Assembly (NCBI GenBank): GCA_016932475.1
Contig: JAFGCU010000107.1
Coordinates: forward strand, 1-45,142
Direction of reading: 5' to 3'
DNA length: 45,142 nt
DNA from: Anaerolineales bacterium
GTDB taxonomy: Bacteria > Chloroflexota > Anaerolineae > Anaerolineales > RBG-16-64-43
Numbering within the stretch: position 1 is the stretch's first letter; each line of letters begins with the position of its first letter. The notes beneath the pieces are model-generated. The model searched no databases. It had not been told where the DNA came from and saw nothing but the letters and a program-made list of their open reading frames with translations. The position numbers were made by a program, and so were the translations under genes. Positions 12,617 through 35,330 of this stretch are shown here, piece by piece.

Positions 12617-14317
12617 TCAGGTCTGCGCCTTCTCCTGTTCGATCGCCAGCACCACCCCCGCGCAGAAAAGCATCAGGAGCGTCGTCATCGCCATCGCCTG
12701 CCCGTAATTCAAACCGCCGGGCTGGGAAAGCAGCCGGTAGATTCCAACCGGCATCGTCGGGAAATCCGGCCGGACGATGATCGAGGTTGCGCCGAACTCG
12801 CCGAGCGAAATGGCGAACGCAAACGCCGAGGAGGAGAGAATCGCCCGCCGGACGATCGGAATATCCACCGTCCACCGGATCCGCCACGGATCCGCCCCGA
12901 GCACCGCCGCCGCTTCCCGCAGCCGCACAGGGATTCCCGCGAAGGCGGGTTTCAATCCGCGCACCACGAACGGGAACGCCACCAGGCTGTGGGCAGCCGG
13001 AATCATCCACGGCGAGCGAATCCAATCCGCCGGGGGACGGGAAAAAACCAGCAGCATTCCCAATCCGAGCGATACCGCGGACGTTCCGAGCGGGAGAAGC
13101 AGGAACGGTTCGAGAAATCGGTCGAACCGGTTCGGCCGGGCCAGCAGCGCCGCCGCGGGGATTCCGAGGAGCAGCGCCAGGACCGCCGTCGCCGCGGCCG
13201 CCATCAGCGAATTTCCCGCCATCTCGACCGGGGTCGCGAAGAAGGCCGATCCCCTGCGGTTGTGGAACAACTCGCGGTAATAATCCAGCGTCCATCCCGT
13301 TTCCACCGCCGACCTCGCGCCTTGTGCCGGATCCGTCCGCAGGAACGACCTCGCCGCGGGGGCGGCCAGCGGCAGGAAGAAAAGGAGGCACAGCATCAGC
13401 GCCAGCACTCCCACGGCGGTTTTCTCCGCGATCGATCCGGGTTTTCGCGCGGCGCGGAAACCCACCCGCCCGGATCCGGCCTGCGCGCGCTCCGAAAGCC
13501 GCGAGGAGATGACGATCAGGGTCAGTGTGCAGGCAATCTGCAGGATCGAAAGGAGCGCGGCGGCCGGCAGGTTGAGCGCCTGCAGCGCCTGGATGTAGAT
13601 CTCCACTTCGATGGTCGAGAAGGCCGGCCCGCCAAGGATCAGGACCACCCCGAATGAGGTGAAGTCGAACAGGAAGACCAGCGCCGCGGCCGCCAGCAAA
13701 TGCGGCATGAGCAGCGGGAATGTAATCCGGGTGAAAGCCTGCCATGGGCCGGCCCCCAACACGCGTGCGGCGGCGGTCAGGCGCGGATCCAACCGCTCCC
13801 AGGCGTTGCCCACCAGCCGCAGGACGATCGAGGTGTTGTAGAAAACGTGGGCGAGGAGTATCGCGCCCAGCGTGTGCAGGAACTGTATCGGCGCTTCGAT
13901 CAGCCCGGATTGCATGAGTGCCAGGTTGACCCATCCGCGCGACCCAAGCAGCGCTTCGAAGCCCGCCGCCACCACCACCGTCGGTAGGATGAAAGGAACG
14001 AGCGTAAACGCGCGCAGGATCCGCTTAATTGGAAAATCAAACCGGGCAAAGAGGTATGCCCCGGGCAGGCCGACGATCAGCGTCAGCACCGTGGAGAGCG
14101 CCGCCTGCAGGACGGTGAACCCAAGCACGTCGATGGCGCGCCGGATCGGGAGCGACTCCCAGCCGCTTTCCCGTGCCGCGTCGATCCCCGTCCGCAGAAT
14201 CGCCGCCAGCGGGGTGTAGAAAAACACGCCGATAAACAGCACGGCGGGCATCCACAGCAGGAGACGCTTCACCGGAACCCGGGAGAGCCGGCCGCGGAGC
14301 GTTTTTCCTCCCGTCAC
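12617..14317 (-). CDS. thiP: Thiamine ABC transporter permease (fused two-domain, ThiP-like)
   Basis: A membrane protein of about 566 residues with two MetI-type permease halves of about six helices each. Both EAA loops are visible: LTAAARVLGAGPWQAFTRITFPLL in the first half and REAAAVLGADPWRIRWTVDIPIV in the second. The duplicated architecture and the second-half GEFGATSIIVRPDFPTMPVGIYRL match ThiP and related iron permeases. I place the start at GTG 14317, whose GTGA overlaps the thiB stop; ATG codons at 14338 and 14350 are alternatives. Substrate is inferred from thiN, thiB and the TPP riboswitch in the same transcript. Confidence 0.86.
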   Translation of the reverse strand: MTGGKTLRGRLSRVPVKRLLLWMPAVLFIGVFFYTPLAAILRTGIDAARESGWESLPIRRAIDVLGFTVLQAALSTVLTLIVGLPGAYLFARFDFPIKRILRAFTLVPFILPTVVVAAGFEALLGSRGWVNLALMQSGLIEAPIQFLHTLGAILLAHVFYNTSIVLRLVGNAWERLDPRLTAAARVLGAGPWQAFTRITFPLLMPHLLAAAALVFLFDFTSFGVVLILGGPAFSTIEVEIYIQALQALNLPAAALLSILQIACTLTLIVISSRLSERAQAGSGRVGFRAARKPGSIAEKTAVGVLALMLCLLFFLPLAAPAARSFLRTDPAQGARSAVETGWTLDYYRELFHNRRGSAFFATPVEMAGNSLMAAAATAVLALLLGIPAAALLARPNRFDRFLEPFLLLPLGTSAVSLGLGMLLVFSRPPADWIRSPWMIPAAHSLVAFPFVVRGLKPAFAGIPVRLREAAAVLGADPWRIRWTVDIPIVRRAILSSSAFAFAISLGEFGATSIIVRPDFPTMPVGIYRLLSQPGGLNYGQAMAMTTLLMLFCAGVVLAIEQEKAQT

Positions 14318-15411
14318 GGCAACATGATTTCCTTCCATGCTTCCATCCATTCCTCGCGATGCGCGCGGATCTCATCCGGCGCAAGCACAGCGGGCGTTTC
14401 GGGGAGCGGTGCGAACCGGAGAAAAGCCTCCGGGAGCGCAGCCTGCGGATTGACCGGGTACACCGCCATCTGCAAAGGAATATCCTCCTGGAATGGAACG
14501 CTCAAAAGGAAGTCCACCAGTTTTTCCGCCAGGGCGCGATTGGGCGTGCCGGCCAGGATCCCGGCGAATTCGATCTGCCGGAAGCACATGCCGGGGCCGG
14601 TAAGCGAAGCGGTCGGCGGTTCGTCGCGCGGCGGATCGGCGTAGATGAATTCGAACGCCGGACTGGATGCGTAAGAGACCACCATCGGCTGCGGGCCTTT
14701 GCCGGAGGACGCGCTGAAGTTGGTGTAATACGCCGTTTCCCAACCGTCGACGACCGCCGCCCGGTTGGCCTTCAACGATTTCCAGAAATCCGCAAAACCC
14801 TCCGGTCCGAAATGCGCCACCGTGGCGAGCAGAAAAGCCAGCCCGGGCGAGGACGTGTAGGGGTTCTCCACCGCCAGAAGCCCTTCGTATTCGGGCAAAG
14901 TCAGGTCCTCGAGCGCCTGCGGCACGGCGAGCATTTGCGAAGAGAACCATTCCCGGTCGTAATTGATGCACACGTCGCCGAAATCCACCGGTAATGCGCG
15001 GTTCTCCGGATCCAGCCGGAAATCGGCCGAGATGCTTTCCGCCAGCGGCGAGGAGTACGGTTCGAAGATCCCCTCCTCCAGCGCGCGGCTCAGGAAGGTG
15101 TTATCCACCCCGTAGAACACGTCCGCCAGCGGCGCGGCCTTGGTCAGGATGGCTTTGTTGAGCGCCGCGCCGGTATCGCCGCTTTCCAGAACGATCACCT
15201 TCGCACCGGCCGCTTGCTCGAACTGCTGCAGAACCGATTCGCTGACGGCGAAGGAATCGTGGGTCATCAGCGTGATGGTGCGCTCCGGATTTGCTTTTTG
15301 GCAGGCCGGGAGCAACAGCACGAGCAGCACGGATACCGTTCCAAAGATTGAGCGGATTCGGGCGGCGTGCGCGCTTTCGCGGATCAGGCGGCGGTTCGGG
15401 TATGTATGCAC
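14314..15411 (-). CDS. thiB: Thiamine-binding lipoprotein of ABC importer
   Basis: A 365-residue extracellular solute-binding protein. It has a long n-region, a hydrophobic stretch and a lipobox LLPAC with lipidated Cys37. The ThiB-type fold is recognised by TITLMTHDSFAVSESVLQQFEQ, SGDTGAALNKAILTK, ADVFYGVDNTFLSRAL, VDFGDVCINYDREWF and ENPYTSSPGLAFLL, which shape the thiamine site in E. coli ThiB. A GAGGAG motif precedes the ATG at 15411, which lies inside the end of thiN (28-base overlap). It should deliver thiamine or its phosphates to the permease. Confidence 0.92.
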   Translation of the reverse strand: MHTYPNRRLIRESAHAARIRSIFGTVSVLLVLLLPACQKANPERTITLMTHDSFAVSESVLQQFEQAAGAKVIVLESGDTGAALNKAILTKAAPLADVFYGVDNTFLSRALEEGIFEPYSSPLAESISADFRLDPENRALPVDFGDVCINYDREWFSSQMLAVPQALEDLTLPEYEGLLAVENPYTSSPGLAFLLATVAHFGPEGFADFWKSLKANRAAVVDGWETAYYTNFSASSGKGPQPMVVSYASSPAFEFIYADPPRDEPPTASLTGPGMCFRQIEFAGILAGTPNRALAEKLVDFLLSVPFQEDIPLQMAVYPVNPQAALPEAFLRFAPLPETPAVLAPDEIRAHREEWMEAWKEIMLP

Positions 15412-16034
15412 AACAGCACTCCTCTTTCGACGGTTATGGTGGCGCGCGCCTCCAGCATCCGGTTGCTTACGCCGCGCGTCCGGTGGGGAATAAGCGTTTC
15501 GCCTCGCAGCGGGAATTTCAATCCGTCGGTGGTAACCCCCTCGGCGGGAACCCCGATCGGCAGCAGGGAGACGATATCTCCGGCGGTTCCGCGCACGGCG
15601 CTTTCCTTACCGATCCGGAAAACCTCCTCGCATCCGTCATCGATGCGGACGTCGATGGATTCCAGCGCCGGGTCGGTCAGCAGCGAAAGGTTCGCCAGGA
15701 TCTGGTCGGTTCTGCCGCCCAGCCCGGCCAGGATCAGGATGACGGGATACCCCTCCCGCACCGCGTAAGCCAGCGCGAGTTCGAGATCCGTTTCATCTTT
15801 TTCCGCGGAGAAGGATTGAATTTTGGTGCCGGCATGGATAAGGGAATCCCGGACCGGATTCGGGAGCGAGTCTAGGTCGCCGATCAGCACATCCGGCGCG
15901 CGCCCCAGCGCCAGCGCATGCCGGCTGCCGCCGTCGGCCGCGATCCACTCGTCGTCGTTTTGCAGCAAACGTTTGGCGGCATCCGGATCCGGAAGCGACC
16001 CGTTGGCGAAGATCACAGCGCGTTTGTGCGGCAT
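15384..16034 (-). CDS. thiN: Thiamine pyrophosphokinase
   Basis: ThiN converts thiamine plus ATP to TPP, the active cofactor and the ligand of the riboswitch upstream. The 216-residue protein shows the family blocks: an N-terminal AVIFANGSLP, WIAADGGSRHAL, PDVLIGDLDSLP, EKDETDLELALAYAV (metal-binding Asp/Glu), ILILAGLGGRTDQILANLSLL and a C-terminal half with VSLLPIGVPAEGVTTDGLKFPL and SNRMLEARATITVERGVLLCI. The ATG at 16034 is chosen because GGAGGG lies 10 bases upstream. A longer frame to 16076 would start within the leader RNA. It heads the operon, overlapping thiB. Confidence 0.94.
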   Translation of the reverse strand: MPHKRAVIFANGSLPDPDAAKRLLQNDDEWIAADGGSRHALALGRAPDVLIGDLDSLPNPVRDSLIHAGTKIQSFSAEKDETDLELALAYAVREGYPVILILAGLGGRTDQILANLSLLTDPALESIDVRIDDGCEEVFRIGKESAVRGTAGDIVSLLPIGVPAEGVTTDGLKFPLRGETLIPHRTRGVSNRMLEARATITVERGVLLCIHTRTAA

Positions 16035-16063
16035 AAAATAAAAACCCTCCGCCGATGGAGGGT
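16035..16063 (-). terminator. Riboswitch-controlled terminator sequestering thiN RBS
   Basis: In transcript order CCCTCC (16062-16057) pairs with GGAGGG (16050-16045), loop of six, then TTTTTATTTT to the thiN ATG. The 3' arm is also the thiN ribosome binding site, so folding would stop transcription and hide the start. Confidence 0.85.
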
Positions 16064-16075
16064 GAGGGTGAGTCA

Positions 16076-16166
16076 CACGATCCCTCCGCCGGCATTACCC
16101 GGAGCAGGTTCTGCGGGTCGAAGGCTGTGCGCCTCCCTCTCAGCCCGGATACGGGCTCCCCGTGAA
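16076..16166 (-). ncRNA. TPP riboswitch (THI element)
   Basis: The minus-strand leader of thiN matches the THI-box core: GGGGAGC (16161-16155), CTGAGA (16143-16138), GAACCTG (16111-16105), then CCGGGTAATGCCGGC (16102-16088) and GGAGGGA (16086-16080). These are the diagnostic parts of the TPP aptamer. It sits between a promoter and a terminator/RBS hairpin. TPP binding should switch off thiN-thiB-thiP and the ATPase. The motif is seen directly; the OFF response is inferred from the terminator. Confidence 0.96.
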
Positions 16167-16175
16167 TATGATCCA

Positions 16176-32689: not shown

Positions 32690-33619
32690 TCAGGATTTCG
32701 GGTAGATCGGCACATTCCACGCGTGGAACTTCGGCTCCATCCCGCGCACAATCCGGAAATACAGATCGCGAAGCTTGCCGACGAAGGGTCCCATCTTCCC
32801 ATCGGCGATCGGGCGCTTGTCCACGTGCGCGATGGCGGCGATCTGCACGCCGGTCCCGCAGAAGAAGGCCTCTTCGGCGAGGTAAACTTCGGTCCGGTCG
32901 ATCGGCCGCTCCACAACCGTCATGCCGAGTTCTTCCTGCGCCAGCTGGATCACGGTGCGGCGGGTGATGCCTTCCAGGATGTTATCGGTGACCGGCGGGG
33001 TAACCAGCACGCCGCCCTTGACCATGAAGAAATTCTCGGCGCTGCCTTCGGAGATGTGCCCGTCGGCGTTGAGGACAAGCGCTTCGTCGTACCCGGCGCG
33101 GATCGCATCGGTCTTGATGAACGCCGAGTTGACATACGCACCAATGATCTTTCCGCGGGCGGGAATGCTGTTGTCGTCGATCCGGCGCCAGGAGGAAAAG
33201 GTCACCGACGATCCCTCCTCGCTCTCGATGTATCGGCCGAAAGGGATCGAGACGATCGTGATGTCGGCGTGCAGATCGTGCAGCCGCACACCGACCGTCT
33301 CATCCGGCACAAAAGCCAGCGGCCGGACGTAGGTGTCTTCCTTGCGGGCCTCGGCGCGCAGGAGTTCGATCGTCACGTCGGCCAGCTGCTGCGGTGTGTG
33401 CGGGAGCTCCATGCTCAGAAGACGCGTCGAATCCAGGAATCGGCGGAAGTGGTCCAGCGGCCGGAACAGATAGAGTTGTTCGTCCTTTTCATTCCAGTAC
33501 GCCCGCACGCCGCCGAAGACGCCGGTGCCGTAATTAAACGTGTGATTGAGCACGCCCACCTTCGCCTGCTCATAGGGTACGATTTTTCCTTTGAAGTAAG
33601 CAAACTTGGGCAACGTCAT
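32690..33619 (-). CDS. ilvE: Branched-chain amino acid aminotransferase
   Basis: IlvE makes or degrades Leu, Ile and Val by PLP-dependent transamination. The 309-residue protein fits class IV aminotransferases: an N-terminal VGVLNHTFNYGTGVFGGVRAYW, the PLP Lys157 (IPARGKIIGAY), VLNADGHISEGSAENFFMVKGG, and GITRRTVIQLAQEELG plus FFCGTGVQIAAI for the phosphate and substrate sites. GGAGGAG sits 8 bases upstream of the ATG. A minus-strand -10 TATAAT lies at 33679-33674, with a weak -35. It is divergent from the lipoprotein esterase. Confidence 0.95.
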   Translation of the reverse strand: MTLPKFAYFKGKIVPYEQAKVGVLNHTFNYGTGVFGGVRAYWNEKDEQLYLFRPLDHFRRFLDSTRLLSMELPHTPQQLADVTIELLRAEARKEDTYVRPLAFVPDETVGVRLHDLHADITIVSIPFGRYIESEEGSSVTFSSWRRIDDNSIPARGKIIGAYVNSAFIKTDAIRAGYDEALVLNADGHISEGSAENFFMVKGGVLVTPPVTDNILEGITRRTVIQLAQEELGMTVVERPIDRTEVYLAEEAFFCGTGVQIAAIAHVDKRPIADGKMGPFVGKLRDLYFRIVRGMEPKFHAWNVPIYPKS

Positions 33620-33687
33620 AATCGTCTCTCCTCCGGGGCGGGGGTTCGGGGAAAATCGATCCCAGGTTGCCCCATTATATCCCGGCC

Positions 33688-33716
33688 TTGACGACTCCCA
33701 TCGGCCGGTCTACACT
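33688..33716 (+). promoter_or_regulatory. Strong promoter immediately before a terminator
   Basis: TTGACG (33688-33693) and TACACT (33711-33716) are separated by 17 bp. Predicted transcription starts near 33723, only about 10 bases before the terminator stem at 33732. The esterase gene starts at 33800. Confidence 0.75.
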
Positions 33717-33731
33717 ACGCATAACAGGCGC

Positions 33732-33778
33732 CCCCGTCCGCCCGCAAGAAGCTTTGTCTTCGGGCGGGCGGGGTTTTT
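33732..33778 (+). terminator. Terminator/attenuator upstream of esterase gene
   Basis: CCCCGTCCGCCCG (33732-33744) pairs with CGGGCGGGCGGGG (33761-33773), 13 bp with one G-U pair, 16-base loop, then TTTTT (33774-33778). No plus-strand gene ends here, so it should act on the transcript from the promoter at 33688, as an attenuator or as the end of a 50-60-nt RNA. Confidence 0.8.
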
Positions 33779-33799
33779 CAAACCGCAACTACGGGATCC

Positions 33800-34735
33800 A
33801 TGAATACTTCGGATGCATCGACTTCGCCTCGGATAAAAATATTCTGCGCGTGGGGCGTTTCCCTGCTGCTGGCATCCTGCGCGATCGCCGGACGCAGCGA
33901 GAAGCGCGCCCGCATGGCAACCGCGTTCCCCAGCCCGACCGTCACCCCGCTCTCGGCTCCGCTGCGGCCGACCGGGACCCTGCCCCCGGCGCTTTCGGCG
34001 ACGGAAACGCCAGAAAGCGTGCTGGCCTGCCCGGATCGAAAAGGCGTACTCCGGGCGGAGACCGTCCCCAGCACCGTCACCGGATCATCCGCGGAATTCT
34101 ACATCTACCTTCCCCCCTGCTATGATTCCGATCCCCAGGTCCGCTACCCCGTCCTGTTCCTTTTTCACGGCTTGGGACGGACCCCCGAACAATGGCACGA
34201 CCTGGGATTGGAGGCAACCGCCGATCATCTAATCGTATCCGGGCGGATCGCTCCGCTCCTGATCATTCTGCCGAATATCCCCGGAGAAGACTCGAACGAT
34301 GCCGTTTTTCTGGCCGATCTTCTCCCGGCGGTCGAGGCCCGCTTCCGGATTCTGGCCGGCCGGGATCACCGCGCCGTCGGGGGCGTTTCGCGCGGTGCGG
34401 AATGGGCGCTGCGCCTGGCCCTGCGCCGGGCGGATCTGTTCGGGGCGGCGGGCGTGCACAGCATCTCCCCCAGCCCGAAAGCCCTCGCGGATTTCTACTT
34501 GTGGGCGGAGGCCGTGCCGGAATCGGTGTGGCCGCGGGTGTATTTCGACGCCGGGTATTCGGATCCGCAGCTCCCGCAAATGCAGGCGATCGTCCAGGTG
34601 TTCGATCTCCTTTCGCGCCCGTACGAGAAGCATGTCCCGCCCGGCGACCACAGCGACAACTATTGGAGCGGGCACATCAGCGATTATCTGCTCTGGTACG
34701 CCGCCGGCTGGTTAACCAAAAACGCGCCCGCCTGA
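33800..34735 (+). CDS. Lipoprotein alpha/beta-hydrolase, esterase D-like
   Basis: A 311-residue exported lipoprotein: a signal sequence ending in lipobox LASC (Cys27), a Ser/Pro/Thr linker (about 40-75), then an esterase-D/enterochelin-esterase-like hydrolase. FYIYLPPCYDSDPQVRYPVLFLFHGLGRTPEQW gives the oxyanion region, the nucleophile is Ser197 in GGVSRGAEW, and a His follows in HSDNYWSGHI. The substrate is unknown; acyl esters on polysaccharides are a typical target. The gene is read through a leader hairpin at 33732-33778. Its stop codon lies in the loop of the terminator at 34721. Confidence 0.88.
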   Translation: MNTSDASTSPRIKIFCAWGVSLLLASCAIAGRSEKRARMATAFPSPTVTPLSAPLRPTGTLPPALSATETPESVLACPDRKGVLRAETVPSTVTGSSAEFYIYLPPCYDSDPQVRYPVLFLFHGLGRTPEQWHDLGLEATADHLIVSGRIAPLLIILPNIPGEDSNDAVFLADLLPAVEARFRILAGRDHRAVGGVSRGAEWALRLALRRADLFGAAGVHSISPSPKALADFYLWAEAVPESVWPRVYFDAGYSDPQLPQMQAIVQVFDLLSRPYEKHVPPGDHSDNYWSGHISDYLLWYAAGWLTKNAPA

Positions 34736-35277: not shown

Positions 35278-35330
35278 TTGACAACGCCCCAAACAGCGAT
35301 ACAATTAGTTCAGTGATACAATTGATACAA
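35278..35330 (+). promoter_or_regulatory. gntR promoter with three GATACAA repeats
   Basis: -35 TTGACA (35278-35283) and -10 TACAAT (35300-35305) are 16 bp apart. GATACAA occurs three times in the same direction, at 35298-35304, 35315-35321 and 35324-35330, overlapping the -10 and the start region. This is a plausible operator for the GntR regulator it precedes (autorepression is inferred). Confidence 0.75.

Follow-up and report, generated by a model that had tools for sequence, protein, structure and literature searches.

A conserved promoter and hairpin preceding an esterase gene in Anaerolineae: a candidate family of short, terminated RNAs

The window analyzed here is the whole of a 45,142-nucleotide stretch of an Anaerolineales bacterium genome (contig JAFGCU010000107.1), and it contains a compact promoter–hairpin unit located between two divergently transcribed genes (Table 1). 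The leftwards-transcribed gene encodes a class IV aminotransferase, which we take to be of the branched-chain type, and the rightwards-transcribed gene encodes a putative esterase with a lipoprotein-like signal. A sequence-only reading had described a TTGACG-17-TACACT promoter, a 13 bp hairpin with a 16-base loop, a T5 tract and the esterase ATG, and direct reading confirms all of these. It had also remarked that no plus-strand gene here needs such a terminator; none lies upstream in the window, and we have therefore rejected an assignment of the hairpin as the terminator of an upstream gene. The predicted RNA of the window has no start codon 5’ of the hairpin. The putative aminotransferase -10 is a perfect TATAAT on the opposite strand, 7 bases from the -35 of the unit, and the surrounding CATTATATCCC is kept in G000, G003 and (as ATTATATCCC) G001; with this spacing and its retention in relatives, the two divergent promoters may interfere. 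Elsewhere in the window there is a sigma-70-like promoter shortly 5’ of a GntR-type regulator, and a TPP riboswitch 5’ of a gene that presumably codes for thiamine pyrophosphokinase, which together with the gene for what we assume to be a lipoprotein-like binding protein form an ordinary thiamine operon.

Table 1. Features of the promoter–hairpin unit, its neighbors and other elements in the 45,142-nucleotide window.
Feature	Position	Strand	Basis
-35 element TTGACG	33688-33693	+	read directly
-10 element TACACT	33711-33716	+	read directly; 17 bp spacer from TTGACG
Predicted start of transcription (A, following a pyrimidine)	33723	+	predicted from distance to -10
Unpaired, near-invariant 5’ end of predicted RNA, AACAGGCGC	33723-33731	+	folding and comparison
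Hairpin, 13 bp stem plus further 4 bp inner stem	33732-33773	+	folding; compensating changes in members
Stem arms CCCCGTCCGCCCG / CGGGCGGGCGGGG	33732-33744 / 33761-33773	+	13 pairs, one of them G-U
Loop of 16 bases	33745-33760	+	4 more pairs possible inside
T5 tract, presumed end of short RNA	33774-33778	+	read directly; U-rich tail in most members
Putative esterase, PF00756, lipoprotein-like signal LLASC	33800-34735 (ATG 33800)	+	PF00756, E 3e-17; lipobox by eye
Class IV aminotransferase, PF01063, divergent from the unit	32690-33619	-	domain match
Putative aminotransferase -10, TATAAT	33676-33681	-	perfect match; 7 bases from -35 of the unit
Sigma-70-like promoter TTGACA-16-TACAAT	35278-35305	+	11 of 12 matches
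GntR-type regulator	35342 (start)		
TPP riboswitch	16063-16172	-	66.2 bits
Presumed thiamine pyrophosphokinase	15384-16076	-	resemblance
Presumed lipoprotein-like binding protein	14314-15411		

The segment from 33720 to 33785 is predicted to fold with a free energy of -33.7 kcal/mol (z -3.9), and none of 200 shuffled sequences folds as well. A terminator scan recovers just part of this hairpin because it admits loops of no more than 8 bases and the actual loop has 16. The promoter matches the consensus at 9 of 12 positions; six comparably scoring sites occur in 8 kb (2.1 are expected), and the promoter motif by itself is weak evidence. Of the 15 promoter-like sites in the entire window, two are followed within 75 nt by a hairpin and U tract, one being the unit (-33.0 kcal/mol) and the other a much weaker structure (-14.2 kcal/mol), and the same combination was seen at 2 of 214 sites in 20 Markov-1 random windows. 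Promoter-like sites are common, whereas a promoter this close to so strong a hairpin is not, and the case from the window alone is a modest one.

Comparison with other genomes identifies the unit in 21 genomes belonging to three families of one order. The esterase has matches in 52 of 61 genomes and the aminotransferase in 56 of 61, and the divergent pair is retained in G001, G003 and G004, whose intergenic DNA contains the same promoter, AACAGGCGCCCC(C)GTC, a hairpin and T’s. Reading of 30 esterase loci revealed the unit in six (G000, G001, G003, G004, G007 and G060), and a pattern search added G002, in which it lies at a contig end. In a 400-genome sample of the order the patterns matched ten genomes, adding G066, G020 and G050; a further one of the ten, G026, has neither promoter nor esterase and is a chance match. 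Of the other pattern matches, that in G054 lies inside a coding frame and was dropped, and those in G048 and at G004:C347 were dropped as having the pattern only. A scan of public contigs for TTGAC-N18-TANACT-N7/8-ACAGGCGC returned 22 loci, of which the 13 from Chloroflexota all have a CYCC continuation and a hairpin, whereas the nine from other phyla lack the continuation and were discarded; G759 (L087), G760 (L089), G761 (L096), G762 (L097), G763 (L100) and G764 (L105) were new. A covariance model (R1), built from 11 of the 16 members then known and with no rows from the window’s own family, recovers the window at 45.2 bits (E 2.8e-7) and matches 14 of 27 genomes in the family of L100, where it gave five new members (G765, G767, G785, G779 and G775). 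The unit is also present in two of six genomes of family f10. A class-wide sample of 396 genomes, searched with stricter filters that may have missed some members, gave 17 matches, two of them accepted (G000 and G003) and 15 lacking the promoter or the motif on reading. Each of 14 member genomes has a single true copy, the additional weak matches being either a reverse reading of that hairpin or two unrelated sites, and the window’s own genome has a single copy at up to three mismatches; a dispersed repeat or mobile element is ruled out by this copy number.

The promoter and hairpin are more than a chance pairing because they are conserved across these members, the shared unit being TTGAC-N18, a TANACT-like -10, a predicted first base A, the nearly invariant AACAGGCGCYCCC as an unpaired 5’ end, and a hairpin, followed in most cases by a U-rich tail. 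When the 21 members are aligned at the predicted start, the information content is 0 to 0.35 bits over columns -60 to -39 and 1.7 to 2.0 bits in the five TTGAC columns, with similar values at the -10; the conserved blocks are the -35, the -10, the pyrimidine at -1, the A at +1, and +1 to +13, and the flanks are near background. TTGAC is present at the matching spacing in 20 members (G779 has no recognizable -35), and the fixed positions of the -10 are T in 20, A in 21, A in 19, C in 18 and T in 20. Every member has C or T at -1, and at +1 there are 20 with A and one with G; a pyrimidine and then CCC come after ACAGGCGC, and any similarity between this sequence and part of 16S rRNA is presumably fortuitous. 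The way in which members were found accounts for part of these figures, ACAGGCGC and, in some cases, the promoter having served as search anchors. Thirteen members were found without any promoter criterion, through esterase synteny, hairpin patterns or the RNA model (G001, G003, G004, G007, G066, G020, G060, G050, G765, G767, G785, G779 and G775); TTGAC lies exactly N18 before the -10 in 12 of these, G779 being the exception, and the -10 has at least four of six matches in all 13. AACAGGCGC is likewise present in all four genomes reached by the esterase protein alone (G001, G003, G004 and G060). The start near 33723 proposed earlier thus gains support, as a predicted start, from conservation of promoter, start and hairpin over three families.

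Chance is ruled out as the origin of the arrangement by its conservation over 21 members, and we have considered whether the conserved block could instead be coding, as an N-R-R-P-R-R peptide. The AAC-AGG-CGC frame is indeed open into the esterase in G050, G759, G761, G765, G767, G775 and G785, with an in-frame ATG or a long open frame further upstream, judged by eye, in six of them (not counted for G050). Other members use the other two frames or have an intervening stop, the hairpin covaries, and the conserved bases fall in differing frames relative to the esterase from genome to genome, so that what is conserved is not protein. An origin in either chance or coding constraint is, we think, barely credible.

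In the hairpin, 6 of 14 pairs have changed on both sides in the 11-row alignment, and the covariation score (0.230) exceeds those of all 500 shuffles (mean 0.151) and of every slid control (highest 0.143). Over the 21 members the sixth pair is UG in 11, UA in seven and CG in three, and the outermost is CG in 15, UA in two and unpaired in four; the fifth is broken in G762 and the length of the inner stem varies. The loop varies too, contrary to the suggestion that homologous leaders might share a conserved loop, and it is the unpaired 5’ end that is conserved instead. Single-sequence folds predict this end to be unpaired, with some whole-length folds pairing part of it with downstream bases. 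The conserved block adjoins the promoter, its first base being the predicted start itself, as might be expected if +1 to +16 were an operator acting at the DNA level on the esterase promoter and the inverted repeat were incidental. However, the block is not palindromic, its downstream part is kept as pairing and not as sequence, which an operator does not need, and U-rich tails follow it, and we regard such a site as improbable.

At least five of the eight bases after the stem are T in 14 of the 20 members with a readable tail, and the mean T content there is 4.85 of 8 compared with 1.85 of 8 further downstream. Tails are weak in the other six, with four T’s in G020 and G761, three in G759, G764 and G775, and two in G762, where a second hairpin with T’s is visible by eye a little downstream. 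A strict terminator everywhere is not supported. Weak U tracts, together with start codons near the hairpin in some genomes, would suit a 5’ untranslated hairpin whose effect is to shield the esterase mRNA or to prevent its translation, with no termination involved; the 14 T-rich tails and the members that have no esterase argue against this, and we think it quite unlikely.

When the 1400 bases after each predicted start are searched by tblastn with the window’s esterase, 16 of the 21 members give a homologue, and two more, G002 (53 bases) and G066 (305 bases), are undecidable at contig ends. In G763, G762 and G779 there is no esterase, nor any remnant of one detectable by tblastn, within 1400, 1400 and 1354 bases of the start, the sole match in G763 (L100; E 1.4e-4) being the unit itself read through. 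In these three genomes the unit sits between what are presumably a pstB-like gene and a convergent Sua5-like gene, and the upstream neighbors of esterase-linked units also differ, being either the aminotransferase or pst genes. In pst-linked members the hairpin could terminate the pst operon, a reading that we set aside as it leaves the promoter unexplained. A PstB tree places G762 and G763 together (80/78 support) and G779 apart, while the rows for G769 and G783, taken in the wrong frame and on very long branches, are not interpreted; with this weak support G762 and G763 may be sisters and the three cases may reflect two events, and between one and three losses of the esterase are possible. 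Conversely, G772 and G777 have the esterase directly behind pstB with no unit, so the unit and the gene are separable in both directions. Both are missing from the stretches examined in G771 and G780; in G771 (L158) the pstB gene is nearly identical to that of G775 and a transposase frame, which we take to be IS200-like, begins at this point, suggestive of a recent loss.

This distribution bears on what we consider the main rival explanation, a purely cis-acting attenuator in which the unit yields nothing but the terminated leader of the esterase mRNA, and a ligand, protein or other RNA controls read-through by way of the conserved 5’ end. As in an attenuator, a promoter leads to a terminator hairpin and U tract and on to a same-strand gene, and the 16 of 21 adjacencies, with differing upstream neighbors, are what is expected of a cis leader and count against an RNA with a role of its own. 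In G007, G020, G060 and G050 no more than about 5-15 nt separate the U tract from an ATG, too little to accommodate a second promoter, so that the esterase would be reachable via the hairpin alone and the hairpin would also throttle its expression. Against a purely cis-acting role are the three esterase-less members, in which linkage to the regulated gene is broken, the two genomes whose esterase follows pstB without a leader of this kind, and the predicted folds, in which inspection by eye reveals no competing antiterminator structure. It is also disfavored by five members (G761, G759, G765, G767 and G785) that have no convincing canonical start codon between hairpin and lipobox, where the unit would make an odd mRNA leader; G759 has a GTG within the loop, and in G765 and G785 a mere 10-12 residues separate a TTG or ATG from the cysteine (the lipoboxes of G765 and G767 were placed by eye). 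The esterase frame of these five (L087, L096, L145, L146 and L149) is open through the promoter and hairpin, and translation may begin further upstream, from an ATG that overlaps the promoter, or from an unusual or non-AUG codon. We think attenuation in cis alone unlikely, if a serious contender.

The interpretation that we prefer is that the promoter makes a terminated RNA of approximately 50-56 nt with a role of its own and that the esterase, where adjacent, is served by read-through; we see the arguments for and against it as evenly balanced. The promoter, start and free 5’ end are kept but the loop and the exact stem are not, and this holds also where there is no esterase, which points to a product with its own role, acting through the 5’ end; that three esterase-less genomes retain the unit likewise favors an RNA that is itself the product. 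As would be anticipated for a small RNA, the unit has, judging by its sequence, its own promoter and terminator (the U tract being weak in 6 of 20), and a conserved seed that is predicted to be unpaired. A sigma-70-type promoter would start the RNA at the predicted A (5’-AACAGGCGCCCCCGUC...), the hairpin would form at once, and RNA polymerase would mostly stop in the U tract, giving an unpaired 9 nt 5’ end attached to a stable hairpin. Its role would most likely be in trans via the invariant 5’ end, either as a base-pairing seed or as a protein-binding end, and at loci with an adjacent esterase read-through past the hairpin would yield the mRNA, with the same hairpin capping expression. G779, with no recognizable -35, also counts against this reading, since retention there could be decay.

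Sites complementary to the first 11 bases are about twice as frequent as those of a reversed-pattern control and commoner in most of 20 genomes, the unit itself counting once per genome; the excess is absent in G003 (equal) and G762. The 30 such loci examined lie inside long coding frames with no shared gene, and there is no recurrent antisense target among them. The fuller proposal, of a lineage-restricted, minimal (approximately 50 nt) Anaerolineae RNA family in which AACAGGCGCYCCC, issued from a fixed promoter, acts in trans and has been kept after esterase loss, with the hairpin both terminator and read-through valve for the esterase, is one that we advance tentatively and with rather more doubt than belief. 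The sequence-only reading had offered a 50-60 nt RNA or an attenuator as alternatives; the esterase-less genomes favor the former, attenuation alone is less favored, the 16 adjacencies lend it some weight, and both may hold.

A search of Rfam 15 at gathering thresholds finds no family in the window except the TPP riboswitch elsewhere in it, and weak hairpin matches alone, far below threshold, at E values up to 10, so that no riboswitch or other RNA of Rfam 15 accounts for the unit. A literature search lying mostly outside the subscription journals gave no account of a comparable RNA from Anaerolineae, and to our knowledge the small RNAs of Chloroflexota are barely charted. The unit thus looks ordinary in kind, a short terminated RNA of the terminated-leader or small-RNA type, and probably new as an RNA family. 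Because it is defined to the base over three families and is separable from the neighboring gene, the questions as to whether it is a terminated leader, a trans-acting RNA, or both are directly testable. Among known systems, rnTrpL of Sinorhizobium meliloti is a trans-acting attenuator RNA and thus similar to the product proposed here in being an attenuated leader with a terminated product acting in trans, but it encodes a leader peptide whereas the window RNA lacks a start codon before its hairpin. SreA and SreB of Listeria are terminated riboswitches acting in trans, the reuse of a terminated leader as a small RNA being what we propose here, although the Rfam search identifies no known aptamer in the window. 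The Chloroflexi-1 motif (RF01698), one of the 104 motifs of Weinberg and colleagues, is also a structured RNA candidate of this phylum, listed there for Chloroflexus aggregans only (PMC2864571), and the Rfam search gives no match to it in the window. Of the systems compared, the nearest functional analogue may be Rli51 of Listeria monocytogenes, reported to be a 121 nt attenuated leader with a proposed antiterminator that also acts in trans (PMC11394854). The Anaerolineae unit is shorter, at approximately 50-56 nt, has no evident antiterminator and belongs to an unrelated organism, and no homology is claimed, but it would share with Rli51 a terminated 5’ leader released as a short RNA, read-through to the downstream gene and a separate role in trans, all three of which are proposals here.
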